DNA from: Salinivirgaceae bacterium
GTDB lineage: Bacteria > Bacteroidota > Bacteroidia > Bacteroidales > SZUA-534
NCBI GenBank assembly: GCA_017557785.1
Contig: JAFYYA010000004.1
Coordinates: 1-55,988 of the forward strand
Direction of reading: 5' to 3'
Length of the DNA stretch: 55,988 bases
The notes under the pieces are model-generated. The model searched no databases and was not told where the DNA came from. It saw only the letters and a list, made by a program, of their open reading frames with translations. Shown here one piece after another: positions 19,402-26,607 of the stretch. Numbering within the stretch: position 1 is the first letter of the stretch; every line of letters begins with the position of its first letter. A program made the translations under genes and the position numbers.

Positions 19402-20760
19402 TTATTTACGACGGACGGGGCGAACCGATTGTCCATAGTAGCGGCTGCTGCCGCTCAACGGATACACACTACTGTTGTCGAAGTAGCAGCAATGTGCGCC
19501 GGTCGGGTAGTTCTCGTCGAGCGAAGCCGACCAGTAGATGCCTTGCAAACTAACGTAGATGTGTCTCGTACTGCTGTAGAAACCGGAAGCCGGAAGGAAA
19601 ATGTGTGCGTCGGACAATGAATAAGACGCTGACGGTGTATCGCCGCTATAAACTACTGTTCCCTTATCGACTTCGGCTTTGGCTTTATAAACTATATAAC
19701 CACTTGCGTTATACTGATTATTGTAATTTTCCGTCCAAACCCAATAACATTGGCTGCCCAATTCATTCCATTCCGTATAGGTTGGGATTGTCCAACCTGT
19801 GCCCAATATTGCTGTGGCTGCGTCATCAGCCGATTCAAGAGTGGTAAGGTTGTCGGTGAAACCATTGTTGCCATATTCTGCATCATAACAATATTTTGTA
19901 AAAGTTTCTTTTGAGCCTTTGCAATACTCATATGTCTCCCAACTGTAAGCATCTTTTGTTTCGGTCTCACCCCACGCATAATAATCACCATAGTACCACG
20001 GGACTGTGACGCCCAAATTACAAGTTGCCCAAAGTGTGCCGCTTTCAAGGCCTAAATCCACTGTGGGTGTAAAAAAATACGCTGTCAAATTAATATCTTC
20101 TTTGCCAATGGTTATGGTTCGTGGATTGTCGGTATATCCATCGCTCCAACCTGCAAAATAGTAATCTGCATTAGGTTTGACGGTAACGGTTACACTGCTG
20201 CCAGGTGCATAACGGCCATTAACATCGGTTTCAATAGTGCCGTTATCGCTTGCGGAAATGATAAGAAGTGGCATTTGCGCAAATTGAGCCGTAATGGTTA
20301 TTTCTTTATCTATGGTTATGGTTCTCGGATTTTCGGTGTTGCCATCGCTCCAACTTGCAAAGTAGTAATCTGCATCAGGTTTGGCAGTAACGGTTACACT
20401 GCTACCGGGGGCATAGCGGCCATTAACATCGGTTTCGATTGAGCCGTTTTCGCTTGCAGATATGGTAAGAAGCAACATCTGCGCAAATTGAGCCGTTAAG
20501 GTTAAATCTTCATTTCTTATAGTTATGGTTCGCGGGTTTTCGATGATGCCATCGTTCCATTTGCTAAAATAATAGCCATCGGCAGGGACTGCCGTAAACA
20601 CAACGGTTTCACCTTCTTTGTATTCGCCATTCTGTCCTTCAACGGTTCCGCCTTCGGTGGCAGCAACTTGAACCATATATGTCGGTTCATCTTTTTTGCA
20701 CCCTGCAAACACCAACGAAATCAATGCAACACCAAATGTTGCCCATAAAAGTTTTCTCAT
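19402..20760 (-). CDS. Surface lipoprotein with three InlB-type B-repeats and a Fibrobacter-major-paralogous-like C-terminal domain
   Basis: A 452-residue exported lipoprotein; the signal peptide ends in a lipobox with Cys21 (SLVFAGC). Three tandem B-repeat domains of about 68 residues follow (28-92, 96-161, 165-229). Each has the GRYAPGSSVTV... DYYFA-WSDG... NPRTITI pattern of the Listeria/Bacteroides repeat. The C-terminal domain (about 233-452: VDLGLESGTLWATCNLG, YYAWGET, IYWSAS, SVRPVRR) matches the Fib_succ_major type domain. The second and third repeats are much alike at DNA level. The TTG at 20766 is discarded in favour of the ATG at 20760. A paralogue with two repeats lies at 50567. 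An adhesive or surface-display role is inferred; no enzyme motif is seen. Confidence 0.85.
   Translation of the reverse strand: MRKLLWATFGVALISLVFAGCKKDEPTYMVQVAATEGGTVEGQNGEYKEGETVVFTAVPADGYYFSKWNDGIIENPRTITIRNEDLTLTAQFAQMLLLTISASENGSIETDVNGRYAPGSSVTVTAKPDADYYFASWSDGNTENPRTITIDKEITITAQFAQMPLLIISASDNGTIETDVNGRYAPGSSVTVTVKPNADYYFAGWSDGYTDNPRTITIGKEDINLTAYFFTPTVDLGLESGTLWATCNLGVTVPWYYGDYYAWGETETKDAYSWETYEYCKGSKETFTKYCYDAEYGNNGFTDNLTTLESADDAATAILGTGWTIPTYTEWNELGSQCYWVWTENYNNQYNASGYIVYKAKAEVDKGTVVYSGDTPSASYSLSDAHIFLPASGFYSSTRHIYVSLQGIYWSASLDENYPTGAHCCYFDNSSVYPLSGSSRYYGQSVRPVRRK
20072..20475 (-). repeat. Two near-identical ~204-bp tandem repeats within the lipoprotein gene
   Basis: Repeat units 2 and 3 of the B-repeat array (about 20272-20475 and 20072-20271) share long stretches such as the segments encoding IETDVNGRYAPGSSVTVT. 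This suggests recent duplication or gene conversion. Confidence 0.65.
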
Positions 20761-21213
20761 AATCAAAATTAAAATCTGTGTTAATTTTTATTTGAAGACA
20801 AAACTAATGTTTTTAATGAGAAACAAACAGTCTGAAAGACTGAATCTGCATAACCGGCCGCAAGCGAAGCGCAGCCGCCGGACACTGCGTACAACTATCA
20901 ACACTCTGAAAGAGTGAACATTGCTAAGGTTCAGTCCTTCAGACTGACATTCCAGTATCGGCAATACCGTAGGTTACGCTCTGCTCACCTACGGTTATGA
21001 AAATATTGTCTTTCAGACAATTATTTATCACCAACATATCAAAGGGCATCAATTGTTTGCCTTAACAGTCATCGCATAACACCACCACACTTCAAATTTT
21101 TGCTATTCAGCAATATGCCTTTTTGCCGAAAAAAATCCGCGCCGACGGCTAACAGAACCAACCAAATTCCGTATCATTGCAAAATTTTTTTTATTCCGAA
21201 AAACGCAACAAAA
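20761..21213. other. 453-bp intergenic region filled with palindromes
   Basis: There is no credible gene here. Bases 20828-21021 hold a chain of short inverted repeats (listed separately). The last 190 bases before guaB are AT-rich spacer with no clear two-box promoter; a reading frame extends upstream from guaB to 21100, but its codons do not resemble any IMPDH N-terminus. Confidence 0.7.
20828..21021. repeat. Composite array of short palindromes (REP/MITE-like)
   Basis: Hairpins in order: CAGTCT-GAA-AGACTG (20828-20842); a CCGG...CCGG GC-rich element (about 20854-20881); CACTCT-GAA-AGAGTG (20902-20916); TCAGTC-CTTCA-GACTGA (20931-20947); ACCGTAGGT...ACCTACGGT with a 12-base loop (20966-20995); ATTGTCT-TTC-AGACAAT (21005-21021). 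Several share the core TCTGAAAGA or its complement. Confidence 0.7.
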
Positions 21214-22707
21214 ATGGCAAAGATTTTCAACGACGTATCAAGAACATTTGGCGAGTTTCTGCTGATTCCGGGACTCACAACCAAACAGTGCATTCCCACA
21301 AACGTGTCGCTCCGCACGCCGCTTGTGAAATTCAAGAAGGGCGAAGAGTCGGCCATCAACCTGAACATTCCGTTTGTGTCGGCCATTATGCAGTCGGTTT
21401 CCGACTCGGGCCTGGCAATCGAGCTCGCTCGCAACGGCGGCCTGTCGTTCATATTTGGCTCGCAGCCTATTGAGTCACAGGCTGATATGGTTCGCCGCGT
21501 CAAGAAATTCAAAGCCGGTTTCGTTACCAGTGACTCGAACGTGAAACCAGACAACACTCTCTACGACGTGCTCGACCTGATTCAGCGCACCGGCCACTCA
21601 ACCATCGGCGTGACCGACGACGGAACACCTAATGGCCGCCTGCTGGGTATGATTACCAGCCGCGACTACCGCACTGATAAGGACGACCTGAACGACAAGG
21701 TGGCGCAGCATATGACTCCGTTCGACAAACTGACCGTCGGCAAACTGGGCATCTCGTTGAGCGACGCCAACCAACTCATCTGGGACAACAAGCTCAACAC
21801 GCTGCCTATCATCGATGAAAATCAGAAACTTATGTACTTCGTCTTCCGCAAGGACCACGACAGCCACCACGAGAATCCGAACGAACTGTCGGACTCGAAC
21901 AAGAAACTGCTTGTGGGCGCCGGCATCAACACTCGCGACTATGAGCAGCGCGTTCCGGCACTGGTTGAGGCGGGTGCCGATGTGCTCTGCATCGACTCGT
22001 CGGACGGATACTCGGAATGGCAACTTGAGACGCTGAAGTGGATTAAGGCAAAATACGGCGACAAGGTTAAGGTTGGCGCCGGCAATATTGTTGATAAAGA
22101 AGGTTTTGACTACCTGGTTGCCGCAGGCGCCGATTTCATTAAGATTGGTATTGGCGGCGGTTCAATCTGCATCACTCGCGAGCAGAAGGGCATCGGCCGC
22201 GGTCAGGCCACTGCAGTGATGGATGTGGCAGCCGCTCGCGACGATTACTTCAAGAAAACTGGTATCTATATTCCAATCTGCTCCGATGGCGGCATTGTGC
22301 AAGACTACCATATGGTGCTGGCTCTGGCAATGGGCGCCGACTTCCTGATGATGGGCCGCTACTTTGCCCGCTTCGACGAGTCGCCGACCAAGAAACTCAC
22401 TATCGGCAACCGCATTGTGAAGGAATACTGGGGCGAGGGTTCGAACCGCGCAAAGAACTGGCAGCGCTACGATATGGGCGGTGCCGCTGCTCTGAAGTTC
22501 GAGGAAGGCGTTGACAGTTACGTGCCTTACGCCGGTAAGATGAAGGACAACCTGGCACAGACTTTGGGCAAAATCCGCGCTACAATGTGCAGTTGTGGTT
22601 CACTGTCAATCAAAGAGTTGCAGCAGAATGCAAAAATCACCGTCGTTTCGTCGACATCAATCATCGAGGGCGGCGCACACGATGTGATTCTGAAGGATCA
22701 GAATTGA
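21214..22707 (+). CDS. guaB: IMP dehydrogenase, Tritrichomonas foetus-like type
   Basis: Oxidises IMP to XMP with NAD+, the committed step of guanine nucleotide synthesis. The 497-residue protein has a TIM barrel interrupted by a CBS-pair region (about 105-220). The catalytic loop [15 protein letters not shown] places the nucleophile at Cys319. The flap carries Arg418-Tyr419 (NWQRYD), and Lys310 and Glu431 are also present. These numbers and much of the surrounding sequence match the T. foetus enzyme as I remember it, rather than the usual bacterial GuaB. The ATG at 21214 ([12 protein letters not shown]) is preferred to a TTG at 21100 because the family starts there. A terminator follows. The enzyme call is secure; the subtype rests on memory. 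Confidence 0.93.
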
Positions 22708-22845: not shown

Positions 22846-22853
22846 TACTTTTG
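22846..22853 (+). promoter_or_regulatory. -7 box TACTTTTG before the TonB receptor
   Basis: A TAnnTTTG match immediately upstream of the gene. It would give a very short leader, and the nearest TTTG (22815-22818) is too far for an ideal -33 box. Confidence 0.4.
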
Positions 22854-22862
22854 CGGTGGATT

Positions 22863-25106
22863 TTGAAACGACTGGCAATGTTATTTTTAGGCATTCTGCT
22901 CACATCAGTGGCCGCACAGGCCGACACAGCCATCAACCTTGAAGGCGTTGAGGTTACGGCATCGTTCAAGGTGCGCAACGATATGCGGACAATGCCGCTT
23001 GCTTCATCGTCATTCTATCTGAAAGACATTGAACAACAGCAGATTAAATCAATTCAAGACTTTGCCGCCACCACACCCAACCTGCACATTCCCGACTATG
23101 GTTCAAGCACAACATCAAGCATTTACATCCGCGGAATGGGAAGCCGAATCGACAACCCAGCCGTGGGGATGTACGTTGACGGTGTGCCGTTTCTGAACAA
23201 AAGTTCGTTCGATGAGCCGCTTTGGGATGTTCGTCGGATTGACGTTCTGCGCGGACCGCAAAGCACACTATACGGACGCAACACCATTGGCGGGATTATC
23301 AGTGTGTCAACGCTCTCGCCATTCGATTACACCGGAACACGCGTCAGCCTTGAAGCCAGCAACGGCCAGATGTGGCGCGCTTCGGCATCGTCGTATTTGC
23401 AACCGACCAATCATTTCGGATTGAGTGCAGGGCTGAGCATTGGCCACACGGGCGGATTCTTCAGCAATGAGTTCACCGGCGACCGCTGCGACTGGCGCAA
23501 CAGCGGCAGTGCACGTTTGCGGATGATGTGGCGCACGGGCGATTGGACTATCGATAACTCATTGAATGTAAACCTAACAAACGAAGGAGGTTATGCCTAT
23601 GCACAGTTCGACACTGTGCGGCGCACCACACTGCCCGTGGCCTACAACGATGAGTGCGGCTACCGCCGTCTGCACATCGCCGAAGGACTTGTGGCTCAAC
23701 GCAATATGAATGTCGTAACGATGAAAAACGTACTCTCGCTGCAATATCTCGACGACGATATGCGGCTCGACCAAGACTTCACAACGCGCAGCCTTTTCAC
23801 CTTGCAGCAGACTCAAAAAGAGTTCACCGTGAGCGATGAAATTGCTTTTCAGAATGCCGATAAATCGCAGATGCTCAATTGGCTGGCGGGTGCGGCAGCA
23901 TTCTTCAAGCACAATCGGATGAGCGCACCCGTGATGTTTAAGCGCGACGGTATCCACGAGTTGATTCTGGACAACGCCAACCACGGCTTGCAGACGGTTT
24001 TCCCCGACGATAGTCTGAGTTTCAGCGAGGATGAGTTCACCATCGGCAGCCGCTTCACAACGCCCACCATCGGGCTTGCAGCATACGGACAAGCCGAATT
24101 ACGGCTGTCGGATTTTGTATTGACTGCGGGCCTGCGGGCTGATTATGAACGCATTGCATTCGACTACGCCAACAGCGCCGAAGTGCACTACAATTTCTCG
24201 TACACAATGCGCGACTACCGCCTGTCGCGGACGGCCATCAGCGGCAGCGAGCACCAGACTTTTGTGGAACTGATACCGAAACTATCGGTGCAATACGTTG
24301 TGGGTGAGCAAAATATCTATCTGTCGGCAGCACGCGGATTCAAGGCAGGCGGCTACAACTCGCAGATGTTTTCCGACATTCTGCAAAACCAGATGAAGGC
24401 AGACCTGATGGGTGCTTTAGGTGTTTATTTCAGCACAGGCACTGAGGGCTATCCTATTGATAAAGTGATTGATTACAAACCCGAACACGACTGGAATTTT
24501 GAGGTGGGGGCTCATTTCCGCACACCCGACCAGCGGCTCACCGCCGATGTGGCGCTCTTCAGCATTTTCTGCACCGATCAGCAGTTGACCGTATTTCCGT
24601 CGGGCAAAGGCACCGGCCGGATGATGACCAACGCAGGCCGCTCACGCTCTGTTGGCGTCGAAGCCGCGCTAGCTGCAAAACCTTGCAAAACAATCAGTTT
24701 ATCAGCATCATACGGCTATACCAACGCCACTTTCACCGATTACGATAACGGTCTGGCCGACTTTTCGGGCAACCATCTGCCCTACGTTCCACAGCACACC
24801 ATTTCGGCCACTGCCGACTACGAGCGAACCATTAGCAATCGTTTTATAAACAGCGTTTTAGCACAACTGCGCCACACTGGCGCAGGACGCATCTATTGGG
24901 ACGAAGCCAACAGAGTCTGGCAAGACTACTATTCGCAATTGGGTGCGTCGGTTGGCGCAAGCGGCAATGTCTGGAATCTGCAACTATGGGCAAAAAATAT
25001 TACCAATCAAGATTTTGCAAACTTTCATTTCACGTCGGTTGGCCGGACGTTCCTTTCGAAAGGAAAGCCGCGGCAAATCGGCCTAACATTGAATCTTTTT
25101 TTATAA
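22863..25106 (+). CDS. TonB-dependent outer-membrane receptor
   Basis: Outer-membrane import channel powered by TonB, of the iron-complex/vitamin receptor type (COG1629-like), about 747 residues. A signal peptide ends near AAQA. A plug domain follows (LEGVEVTAS... IKSIQDFAATTPNLHIPDYG, VDGVPF, VLRGPQSTLYGRNTIGGIISV), then a 22-strand barrel ending in an aromatic residue (NLFL). No N-terminal carboxypeptidase-like domain and no SusD neighbour is present, so it is not a SusC. The start is uncertain: TTG at 22863 gives a basic signal-peptide N-terminus, ATG at 22878 loses it. A calycin-like lipoprotein gene follows within 20 bases, so the two probably act together; the ligand is unknown. Confidence 0.9.
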   Translation: MKRLAMLFLGILLTSVAAQADTAINLEGVEVTASFKVRNDMRTMPLASSSFYLKDIEQQQIKSIQDFAATTPNLHIPDYGSSTTSSIYIRGMGSRIDNPAVGMYVDGVPFLNKSSFDEPLWDVRRIDVLRGPQSTLYGRNTIGGIISVSTLSPFDYTGTRVSLEASNGQMWRASASSYLQPTNHFGLSAGLSIGHTGGFFSNEFTGDRCDWRNSGSARLRMMWRTGDWTIDNSLNVNLTNEGGYAYAQFDTVRRTTLPVAYNDECGYRRLHIAEGLVAQRNMNVVTMKNVLSLQYLDDDMRLDQDFTTRSLFTLQQTQKEFTVSDEIAFQNADKSQMLNWLAGAAAFFKHNRMSAPVMFKRDGIHELILDNANHGLQTVFPDDSLSFSEDEFTIGSRFTTPTIGLAAYGQAELRLSDFVLTAGLRADYERIAFDYANSAEVHYNFSYTMRDYRLSRTAISGSEHQTFVELIPKLSVQYVVGEQNIYLSAARGFKAGGYNSQMFSDILQNQMKADLMGALGVYFSTGTEGYPIDKVIDYKPEHDWNFEVGAHFRTPDQRLTADVALFSIFCTDQQLTVFPSGKGTGRMMTNAGRSRSVGVEAALAAKPCKTISLSASYGYTNATFTDYDNGLADFSGNHLPYVPQHTISATADYERTISNRFINSVLAQLRHTGAGRIYWDEANRVWQDYYSQLGASVGASGNVWNLQLWAKNITNQDFANFHFTSVGRTFLSKGKPRQIGLTLNLFL

Positions 25107-25126
25107 ACAATTAAATATCAGTTAAA

Positions 25127-25585
25127 ATGAAACATTTTTTTAGTTTTTTGATTTGTGCCGCAATGCTCTCATTTGTGGCTTGTGACGAGAACGACGACAG
25201 CAAAGACGTCAATCCAACACCCCAAGCAGCATCGGCTTTAGGAACAGTTACAGTGACGCAAGCCGACAGCAGCGAGTTCAGCAAAGACGACGTGAACGTT
25301 GCTTTGACCTACGCCGAAGACAGCATGACCATCGCCATGTTCAAAGTGAAATTTGCCGAACGTATGCCGCTCGAACTCGACATGACCATCGGCGGTGTGC
25401 AGTACAGCAACAACGACGGCGACATCAAACTGTGGGGCAACAACATTGTTCCGCAAGCAATGGGCGGCGCGTTCCCGAAGTACACCATCACCAATCTTGA
25501 AGGGGAAGTCAGCGACGGGGAAGTCTCATTCACAATGATGTGCGGTGAGTTTCCTACACGGTTCAAAGGAGCGCTGATGAAGTAA
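25127..25585 (+). CDS. Calycin-like beta-barrel lipoprotein
   Basis: A 152-residue exported lipoprotein (signal peptide with lipobox SFVAC, Cys19). The mature part reads GTVTVTQADSSEF..., then LTYAEDSMTIAMFKVKFAERMPLELDMTIGGV and YTITNLEGEVSDGEVSFTMMCGEFPTRFKGAL. This resembles the Bacteroidota calycin-like domain (PF13944 as I recall). Such proteins often sit beside TonB receptors and may bind a small hydrophobic ligand or haem; that role is inferred. It lies 20 bases after the receptor and before a terminator, so the pair forms one transcript. Confidence 0.8.
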   Translation: MKHFFSFLICAAMLSFVACDENDDSKDVNPTPQAASALGTVTVTQADSSEFSKDDVNVALTYAEDSMTIAMFKVKFAERMPLELDMTIGGVQYSNNDGDIKLWGNNIVPQAMGGAFPKYTITNLEGEVSDGEVSFTMMCGEFPTRFKGALMK

Positions 25586-25614
25586 TCGCTATTTGGAACT
25601 AATTCTGCTACACG

Positions 25615-25645
25615 AAGGTACGGGCAACCGTGCCTTTTGTGTTTC
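25615..25645 (+). terminator. Terminator after the receptor-lipoprotein pair
   Basis: AAGGTACGG, loop GCAA, CCGTGCCTT (one G-T pair), then TTTGTGTTT. Confidence 0.8.
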
Positions 25646-25702
25646 AATGGGTTAGATGTCTGATTATCGACTGACGGGAACGGTGTTGTCGCTATTTTTT
25701 CT

Positions 25703-25710
25703 TACGTTTG
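25703..25710 (+). promoter_or_regulatory. -7 box TACGTTTG before the AraC regulator
   Basis: A perfect TAnnTTTG followed by CCGC, 19 bases before the ATG at 25729. The TTG inside it is not used as a start. No -33 box is obvious. Confidence 0.55.
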
Positions 25711-25728
25711 CCGCAAAAACCGACACAG

Positions 25729-26607
25729 ATGCACACACCAGCACACGGCGGAACTAATGCGATGGGGCGGATTGGCGGCAGCAGAATGGCGCCATTCTCT
25801 ATCCGTCTGCTCGACGAGCATTGCCAGCATGCAGTGTCGTGCCCTACACCACCCATCCGTTCGGCAAATCACAACTTCATGTTTCTCATGAAAGGCGAAG
25901 TGCTGATTGAAGCCGAATCGGTTCAGCAACTGGTCGGAGCCAACGAGTGCATCATTATTCCCGCGGGCAACTTGTTCTCAATCAGATATTTCAAAGACTG
26001 TTTCGGCTATATGGGCAGTTTCAGCACCGATTTTCTCTGCACTAGTCCGGCGGTGGCGGGAATCTACAAGGGAATAGCCTTTGTGCAGGCCGGCGGCAGC
26101 CGCATAACACGCTTCGACCACAGCCGTAGCGGATTTGTCGAGATGCTGCTCGAACGCGTCATGGCCGAAACGCTGTCGGTGCCGCAAAGCGACGATGTCA
26201 TCCGAGCCAACATGAACTCATTTTTGGTTGAGATGGCCACCGAATCGGAAAAAACAACGGCACACATTGCGCTGCCTAACGTACTGAGCAACAAGTTCAT
26301 GAAGATGGTTTTCGAAAACGGGCAAAGCAACTTGTCGGCAGCCAAATATGCAGAAAAACTTGATGTCAGTCCGAACCATCTGAGCAAAACCATCAAACAG
26401 AACACAGGCCACCCCGTAACATACTGGATAAACGAATCGGCTATGATGGCCGCCAAAATGCTGCTCAAAAACACCGATTTGACAATGAGCGAGATAGCCG
26501 AGCAGTTGGGCATGATGGACCCGTCATATTTTGCCCGCCGCTTCCGCCAGCACGAGCGCATGACACCCACCGAATACCGAAGGATTGTCCGGGGAAATTC
26601 AAATTAG
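25729..26607 (+). CDS. AraC-family transcriptional regulator
   Basis: A 292-residue DNA-binding protein with an N-terminal cupin-like sensing domain (about 15-170: FMFLMKGEVLIEAESVQQLVGANECIIIPAGN) and a C-terminal double helix-turn-helix (about 190-290: LSAAKYAEKLDVSPNHLSKTIKQNTG... MSEIAEQLGMMDPSYFARRFRQHERMTPTEYRR). It lies behind a terminator with its own promoter, and follows the TonB receptor pair, so it is a good candidate to regulate that pair. The ATG at 25729 is chosen over a TTG inside the promoter box. Its stop overlaps the end of the convergent folP by four bases. Confidence 0.9.
   Translation: MHTPAHGGTNAMGRIGGSRMAPFSIRLLDEHCQHAVSCPTPPIRSANHNFMFLMKGEVLIEAESVQQLVGANECIIIPAGNLFSIRYFKDCFGYMGSFSTDFLCTSPAVAGIYKGIAFVQAGGSRITRFDHSRSGFVEMLLERVMAETLSVPQSDDVIRANMNSFLVEMATESEKTTAHIALPNVLSNKFMKMVFENGQSNLSAAKYAEKLDVSPNHLSKTIKQNTGHPVTYWINESAMMAAKMLLKNTDLTMSEIAEQLGMMDPSYFARRFRQHERMTPTEYRRIVRGNSN

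Follow-up and report, generated by a model that had tools for sequence, protein, structure and literature searches.

A Tritrichomonas foetus-type IMP dehydrogenase and a long GMP synthetase have probably displaced the canonical pair in a lineage of Bacteroidales

IMP dehydrogenase (IMPDH) and GMP synthetase (GMPS) are classical housekeeping enzymes that also serve as drug targets. The window analyzed here, positions 1 to 55,988 of contig JAFYYA010000004.1 of a Salinivirgaceae genome (assembly GCA_017557785.1), encodes an IMPDH that resembles the enzyme of the protozoan Tritrichomonas foetus. The source organism is a rumen bacterium, and many other bacteria also have an IMPDH of this type. The locus raises the question of how the enzyme came to stand in this genome and what became of the canonical guanine nucleotide enzymes. 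We consider it likely, with a probability of roughly 0.8, that this T. foetus-type enzyme is the sole IMPDH, that it was acquired horizontally with or from a Paludibacteraceae-like lineage, and that canonical GuaB and canonical GuaA were both displaced.

Residues 1–496 of the predicted protein aligned without gaps to residues 1–496 of T. foetus IMPDH (1ak5; 785 bits in phmmer), with 344 of 496 residues identical (69.4%). The second-best structure was Listeria Lmo0132 (8ebc), the best canonical GuaB structure reached 276 bits, and identity to six canonical Bacteroidales GuaB proteins was only 33–37%. This likeness to the T. foetus enzyme is far above chance. The protein scored 942.5 bits with the model NF005493 (cut-off 585) and 358.5 bits with the canonical GuaB model TIGR01302 (cut-off 481.5), which places it, as judged from sequence, in the known bacterial family NF005493/PRK07107 as a further member. 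It would accordingly be expected to convert IMP to xanthosine monophosphate as the only IMPDH of the cell. The preliminary description had proposed an enzyme that resembles T. foetus IMPDH, shares its residue numbering and is distinct from canonical GuaB, and this was borne out: Lys310, Cys319, Thr321, Arg418, Tyr419, Glu431 and Glu485-Gly486-Gly487 carry the same numbers in both proteins. The proposal of a close relationship to the donor of the protozoan gene did not hold, as discussed below.

From the T. foetus IMPDH literature we take Cys319 to be the catalytic residue, and Glu485-Gly486-Gly487 presumably has a role in potassium binding. Arg418 is described in the accessible text of PMC2525682 as the water-activating base of IMPDH. 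The window protein has the catalytic, flap and Glu-Gly-Gly residues of the family, and no trait singles it out among the members; in its own genome it is the sole IMPDH found. Canonical GuaB has the catalytic Cys, the Thr, the Arg-Tyr pair, Lys310 and Glu431 in common with it, but its loops read GPGS and GVGVPQ, whereas the window protein has GGGS and a different second loop. The CBS region aligned without gaps to 1ak5, with one Pfam CBS match only (residues 110–151). No Rfam family, riboswitches included, matched in the window at gathering score.

The preliminary description had asked about a second guaB. None was found in the window genome assembly (153 contigs, 94% complete, 7% contamination), which gave a single IMPDH protein match, with three other TIGR01302 matches of 21–27 bits. 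We compared 60 relatives, 393 genomes of the order and 395 genomes drawn from the phylum, mostly metagenome-assembled genomes (MAGs). In the order-wide IMPDH and GMPS surveys up to three candidates were scored per genome, so that second IMPDH copies may be missed. Among the 60 relatives, 14 exceeded the NF005493 cut-off, namely all 11 genomes of the window's genus (g1), the one genome of its sister genus g7 (G016), G041 and G052. Within the window's family (f1), g1 (11/11) and g7 (1/1) had the T. foetus type and no canonical copy; in two g1 genomes a partial match was seen in addition (57 residues in G003, 31 in G009). Seven of the eight genomes from the other f1 genera (g2–g6) had a canonical-scoring GuaB only, and the eighth (G019, 65% complete) had none. 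In the order, the cut-off was exceeded in 57 of 393 genomes, and in 15 of these there was a further IMPDH match with E 1e-20 or better; of such matches, those listed (G114, G123 and G305 here, and G052 among the 60 relatives) score as canonical. The phylum draw yielded three carriers in 395, the window genome, G123 from the same order and G569 from another. The last (L169) was the sole carrier outside the order in this draw and has a long branch. The best 80 of 419 confirmed genome-contig stretches were all Bacteroidota by record title.

The second step of the pathway was unusual in the same genomes. In a guaA search of the 60 relatives 43 were over the cut-off, including all eight genomes of g2–g6. 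A weaker match to TIGR00884 in two overlapping pieces (model positions 8–299, then 201–310), in no case over the cut-off, was obtained from 10 of the 11 g1 genomes and from G016; the remaining g1 genome (G001) had no guaA match in this search. The open reading frames behind the two-piece match have 600–628 amino acids, or 316 in the window genome, where the contig ends within the gene (G000:C75:1-951). In the window's genus and in g7, no canonical GuaA was seen, and a long GMPS is found instead.

We analyzed the long GMPS of G007 (P0002, 598 amino acids) as a representative. It scored 539.2 bits with the full-length guaA model NF000848 (cut-off 400) and 273.4 bits with the domain model TIGR00884, below the cut-off of 338.75. 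The motifs GICYG, QFHPE, SGGVDST, IKTHHN and GPGLG were present in P0002 and in nine of nine long sequences checked. Relative to nine of nine canonical GuaA proteins, P0002 has a 94-residue insertion (residues 403–441 and 444–498). Human GMPS (2vxo, 58 bits) aligned with the whole of its last 199 residues; the C-terminus also matched 12 further chains, but these only over the last part or, in the case of 5tw7, in two separated parts. The arrangement points to a duplicated dimerization domain (D1 and D2), with D1 between the ATPPase core and the C-terminal domain, as in human GMPS and the group termed Ensemble A. In P0002 as in the human enzyme, a VGVQGDxRxY loop is found in D1 and is gone from D2, and the long bacterial proteins share QMPV.LTPL in D2 with Ensemble A as represented by 2vxo. 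The long GMPS thus carries the D1 that characterizes Ensemble A. In the accessible text of PMC9312489 that group is eukaryotic, whereas the long GMPS described here is bacterial. Over shared columns, the core of P0002 and of a g7 relative resembled human GMPS (41–42% identity) no more than canonical bacterial GuaA (42–47%, a range given without the Nonomuraea and Shinella rows). The union of long and human GMPS in a tree had a support of 61/91, with long branches.

The long GMPS is far rarer than the IMPDH. It was found in four of 393 order genomes (three g1, one g7), with 29 lacking any match. In the phylum draw, 15 of 395 genomes matched it at E 1e-110 or better, the window genome included; the other 14 aligned only up to residue 402–448 at 46–49%, like canonical GuaA. 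Among 21 genomes picked for the T. foetus-type IMPDH, which was confirmed in all 21 and accompanied by a canonical one in three, the long GMPS was present in eight. One of the eight, G803, coincides with G016 in its coordinates. The other seven comprise six genomes named Paludibacteraceae and a single one named Bacteroidales only (G805), and we refer to them as the Paludibacteraceae-like group; in three of the seven the gene lies in pieces at contig ends. It was not found in G802 and 12 others of the 21. These seven genomes have both enzymes in common with g1 and g7. On plasmids and phages, a C-terminal query for D1 matched 287 and 12 records, respectively, none covering 80% of the query, and no GMPS match was obtained in viral contigs.

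Comparison with rpoB reveals a conflict for both enzymes. The rpoB tree (29 rows, 28 of them different, with five of the seven Paludibacteraceae-like genomes) placed g1 and g7 in f1 together with genera that have the canonical enzymes (100/100), and placed the Paludibacteraceae-like group with Parabacteroides, Bacteroides nordii and G041 (100/100). An rpoB clade of g1, g7, the Paludibacteraceae-like group and G802 was rejected by the approximately unbiased (AU) test (p-AU 1.4e-7, 25 rows). In the IMPDH tree, g1 and g7 were joined with the Paludibacteraceae-like group (100/97), and the clade required by vertical descent was rejected (p-AU 0.0021). Between g7 and three genomes of the group, identity was 75–76% for rpoB, 92–93% for GMPS and 79.2–81.7% for IMPDH; between g1 and four of them it was 76–77%, 87–88% and 80.2–84.5%, respectively. 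Canonical GuaA of f1 was 70–76% identical to that of six genomes from other families. With 92–93% in GMPS against 75–76% in rpoB, the GMPS identity by itself speaks for transfer. As rpoB separates the groups and both enzymes join them, horizontally moved enzymes seem to have taken over the two reactions that lead from IMP to GMP.

In the simplest account, the two enzymes were transferred between families and took the place of the native pair in g1 and g7. The common ancestor of the two genera would have acquired the IMPDH horizontally, with a Paludibacteraceae-like gut lineage as donor or as fellow recipient, and canonical GuaB would have been displaced; in the same ancestor the long GMPS with D1 and D2 would have displaced canonical GuaA, leaving both steps from IMP to GMP to be run by exchanged enzymes. 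The long GMPS would then be a monomer, like the human enzyme. This direction is suggested because Parabacteroides-type relatives of the Paludibacteraceae-like group have the same IMPDH type.

Several observations weigh against this account. IMPDH of g1 is 81.3% identical to that of Parabacteroides G807, inside the range between g1 and the Paludibacteraceae-like group; IMPDH identities are weak evidence by themselves, and the case for IMPDH transfer therefore rests on the tree. The long GMPS is 87.6% identical between g1 and g7, lower than the 92–93% between g7 and the Paludibacteraceae-like group, as would be expected if g1 evolved faster (branch 0.11) or if there were two transfers. The rpoB clade and the vertical alternative were named for testing after the trees had been seen, and rpoB is one marker, taken mostly from MAGs. 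IMPDH and GMPS are unlinked in the window genome (contigs C146 and C75), so that a joint transfer is something we infer. Only four of the 57 order genomes that carry the IMPDH have both enzymes, and the pair is not obligatory; most of these carriers keep another GuaA, and the two exchanges are therefore separable. G802 falls by rpoB among the Paludibacteraceae-like genomes and has the IMPDH, with no long GMPS seen. Among relatives from other families, neither canonical nor long GuaA was found in G032 (no match), G023, G036 and G053 (traces only). The guaA match of a further relative, G033, was split into pieces.

A bolder reading, which we regard as possible yet doubtful, is that a eukaryote-type D1 GMPS was captured by gut Bacteroidales, was paired with the T. 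foetus-type IMPDH and then travelled with it between families as one functional unit, displacing both native enzymes. Such a GMPS might be monomeric, as in humans, and might respond differently to inhibitors or feedback.

Alternatively, both enzyme types could be ancestral to Bacteroidales and have been lost in most lineages without any transfer. The spread of the IMPDH over many families and the genomes with both IMPDH types (second match in 15 of 57) would agree with such losses, but the long GMPS occurs in four of 393 genomes only and is nevertheless 92–93% identical across families whose rpoB is at 75–76%, and the vertical IMPDH topology was rejected. We therefore regard ancestry with loss as unlikely. 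An equally improbable explanation is that the pair was selected because it replaces the targets of a natural compound inhibiting both enzymes, for instance bredinin, which we take to be the same compound as mizoribine. Family IMPDHs do lie near nonribosomal peptide synthetase (NRPS) genes on three Streptomyces plasmids; however, no producer or exposure is known for the gut lineage and the IMPDH type is mostly found without the long GMPS. Moreover, T. foetus IMPDH has been crystallized with mizoribine monophosphate (MZP) (1pvn; accessible text of PMC2525682), and the T. foetus type is therefore not immune to MZP. A binning artefact that brought foreign contigs into MAGs is very unlikely even though the window MAG is 7% contaminated and most genomes are MAGs, as all 11 genomes of the genus have the IMPDH and no canonical copy, 10 of these 11 have the long GMPS, and neighbors recur in congeners (czcD or folP beside the IMPDH, the block from an S1-like gene to GMPS in L193 and L196).

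With respect to the T. foetus gene itself, the preliminary description had suggested that the window's lineage is close to its donor. We reduced 154 locus proteins (own-genome copies and fragments excluded) to 91 rows at 92% identity, including the window and T. foetus, and added six canonical rows. In the resulting 97-row quick tree, T. foetus lay outside the group of all Bacteroidota rows except L107, and the actinobacterial rows fell inside the Bacteroidota group on a long branch (98*). A more careful tree was built from 64 rows, after removal of the canonical and actinobacterial sequences and of the long-branched L169 and thinning by hand of 20 more. Here, 59 Bacteroidota rows formed a clade without T. 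foetus (100/100), and T. foetus was placed between this clade and three Bacillota rows plus L107, which is a Bacteroidales genome with a Bacillota-like copy. The best match of T. foetus among the gathered sequences was Listeria (71.7%), ahead of the window (69.4%). Sister positions of T. foetus to the window (p-AU 0.0065) and to its seven-row clade (p-AU 0.030) were rejected, while a grouping of Listeria with T. foetus was not (p-AU 0.25). Thus, in spite of the gapless 69.4% identity and the position of T. foetus IMPDH within a bacterial family, a donor near the window's lineage is hardly credible, since the fully supported Bacteroidota clade does not include T. foetus, whose nearest rows are Bacillota. 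We do not name a donor because Bacillota are thinly sampled, with three records and L107. The family IMPDH of L107 (G140) is sister to that of Monoglobus, a member of Bacillota (100/97), which reflects transfer or contamination.

Lys310 and Glu431 had also been read as a sign of mycophenolate tolerance. Both residues are found in all 149 family rows (T. foetus among them, many of the rows being near-identical) and in 7 of 7 actinobacterial rows, and equally in 6 of 6 canonical GuaB proteins; they are therefore uninformative, and nothing special is predicted about mycophenolate. According to the accessible text of PMC2525682, most prokaryotic IMPDHs conserve Glu431, which accounts for a 5–10-fold resistance, so that a tolerant enzyme would be the norm in bacteria.

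The features of the IMPDH gene are collected in Table 1. Its surroundings vary within g1, with czcD upstream and folP downstream recurring and other genes coming and going; in L028 and L029, the first window gene to follow the IMPDH is folP. The flanking genes at 19402–20766 and 22851–26607 of the window differ between congeners, and the repeat protein among them, where other genomes have it, shows an identity of 48–71%. None of the other 11 window genes compared was present in the Paludibacteraceae-like IMPDH loci, and L035 and L040 of that group had no other frame in common with the window. Replacement of canonical guaB in place was not supported: 14 kb around the guaB of G012 (L199) and the window had only the IMPDH in common (frames of at least 100 amino acids). 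The long GMPS gene lies in two different neighborhoods within one genus, one in L195 and L197 and the other in L193 and L196, which have a common block from an S1-like gene to GMPS. We take the GMPS neighbors in L194 and L197 to be Lrp- and GlyA-like genes (the Lrp-like one also in L195), and presumably an AroK-like gene lies alongside in three Paludibacteraceae GMPS loci. Furthermore, L249 (G802:C70) and L253 (G814:C113, Bacteroides nordii) encode GMP synthetase-like proteins that are 88% identical over 360 residues and whose amidotransferase part looks shortened.

Table 1 Features of the IMPDH gene in the window
Feature	Position	Strand	Remark
guaB-type gene, IMP dehydrogenase of the NF005493/PRK07107 (T. 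foetus) family	21214..22707	+	ATG to stop, 497 aa; sole IMPDH found in genome
CBS (Bateman) region, ~residues 103-211	21520..21846	+	stretch absent from Listeria 8ebc chain; putative boundaries
Lys310 codon	22141..22143	+	also in canonical GuaB
Catalytic Cys319 codon	22168..22170	+	alignment with T. foetus IMPDH
Codons of flap residues Arg418-Tyr419	22465..22470	+	alignment with T. foetus IMPDH
Glu431 codon	22504..22506	+	also in canonical GuaB
Glu485-Gly486-Gly487 codons	22666..22674	+	same as T. foetus; 149/149 family rows

Related proteins were also found in plasmid, viral and phage records. Plasmid records (tblastn) included matches from Parabacteroides (81%), Listeria (68%), Subdoligranulum (67%), Monoglobus (66%), Mycolicibacterium (54%) and Streptomyces/Embleya (48–51%); the canonical ones among those listed were at about 36%. 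The Streptomyces plasmids L134, L138 and L139 and Embleya L140 carry a family IMPDH (48–51%) within about 15 kb of NRPS adenylation-domain genes, L138 and L139 with the common order TauD, DUF6875, NRPS, lysA, PLP enzyme, IMPDH, acyl-CoA dehydrogenase, nitroreductase and ATP-grasp. Glu485 is replaced by Gln in six of seven actinobacterial IMPDH rows. The NRPS-near copies are possible self-resistance enzymes. Viral contigs yielded one IMPDH fragment with the window protein as query and one distant match with alignment A1. The records of the Listeria phages LM 4-11-1 and LM 4-14-1 (H41–H44, H53, H57, H58) contain the Listeria IMPDH of the family along with canonical-type IMPDHs and look like host contigs.

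In the open-licence literature, searched by title and start of abstract, we found nothing on T. foetus-type IMPDH in Bacteroidota or on bacterial D1 GMPS. The IMPDH family is already known; what is new is the proposed double replacement and the bacterial D1 GMPS, as variants of known enzymes. In the accessible text of PMC10526850, D1 is absent from bacterial, protozoal and archaeal GMPS. The 2022 phylogeny, as far as its accessible text goes, reports D1 from Opisthokonta, Apusozoa, Amoebozoa, Euglenozoa, Haptophyta and Cryptophyta, finds parabasalids without it and concludes that it had a single origin, at the base of one set of eukaryotic proteins (PMC9312489). A bacterial D1 GMPS contradicts both this absence from bacteria and the single eukaryotic origin, and it would allow the transition from dimer to monomer to be studied in bacteria. 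Overall, a lineage in which both enzymes have been exchanged, between families as the conflict with rpoB indicates, may serve as a test case for the replacement of consecutive essential steps.
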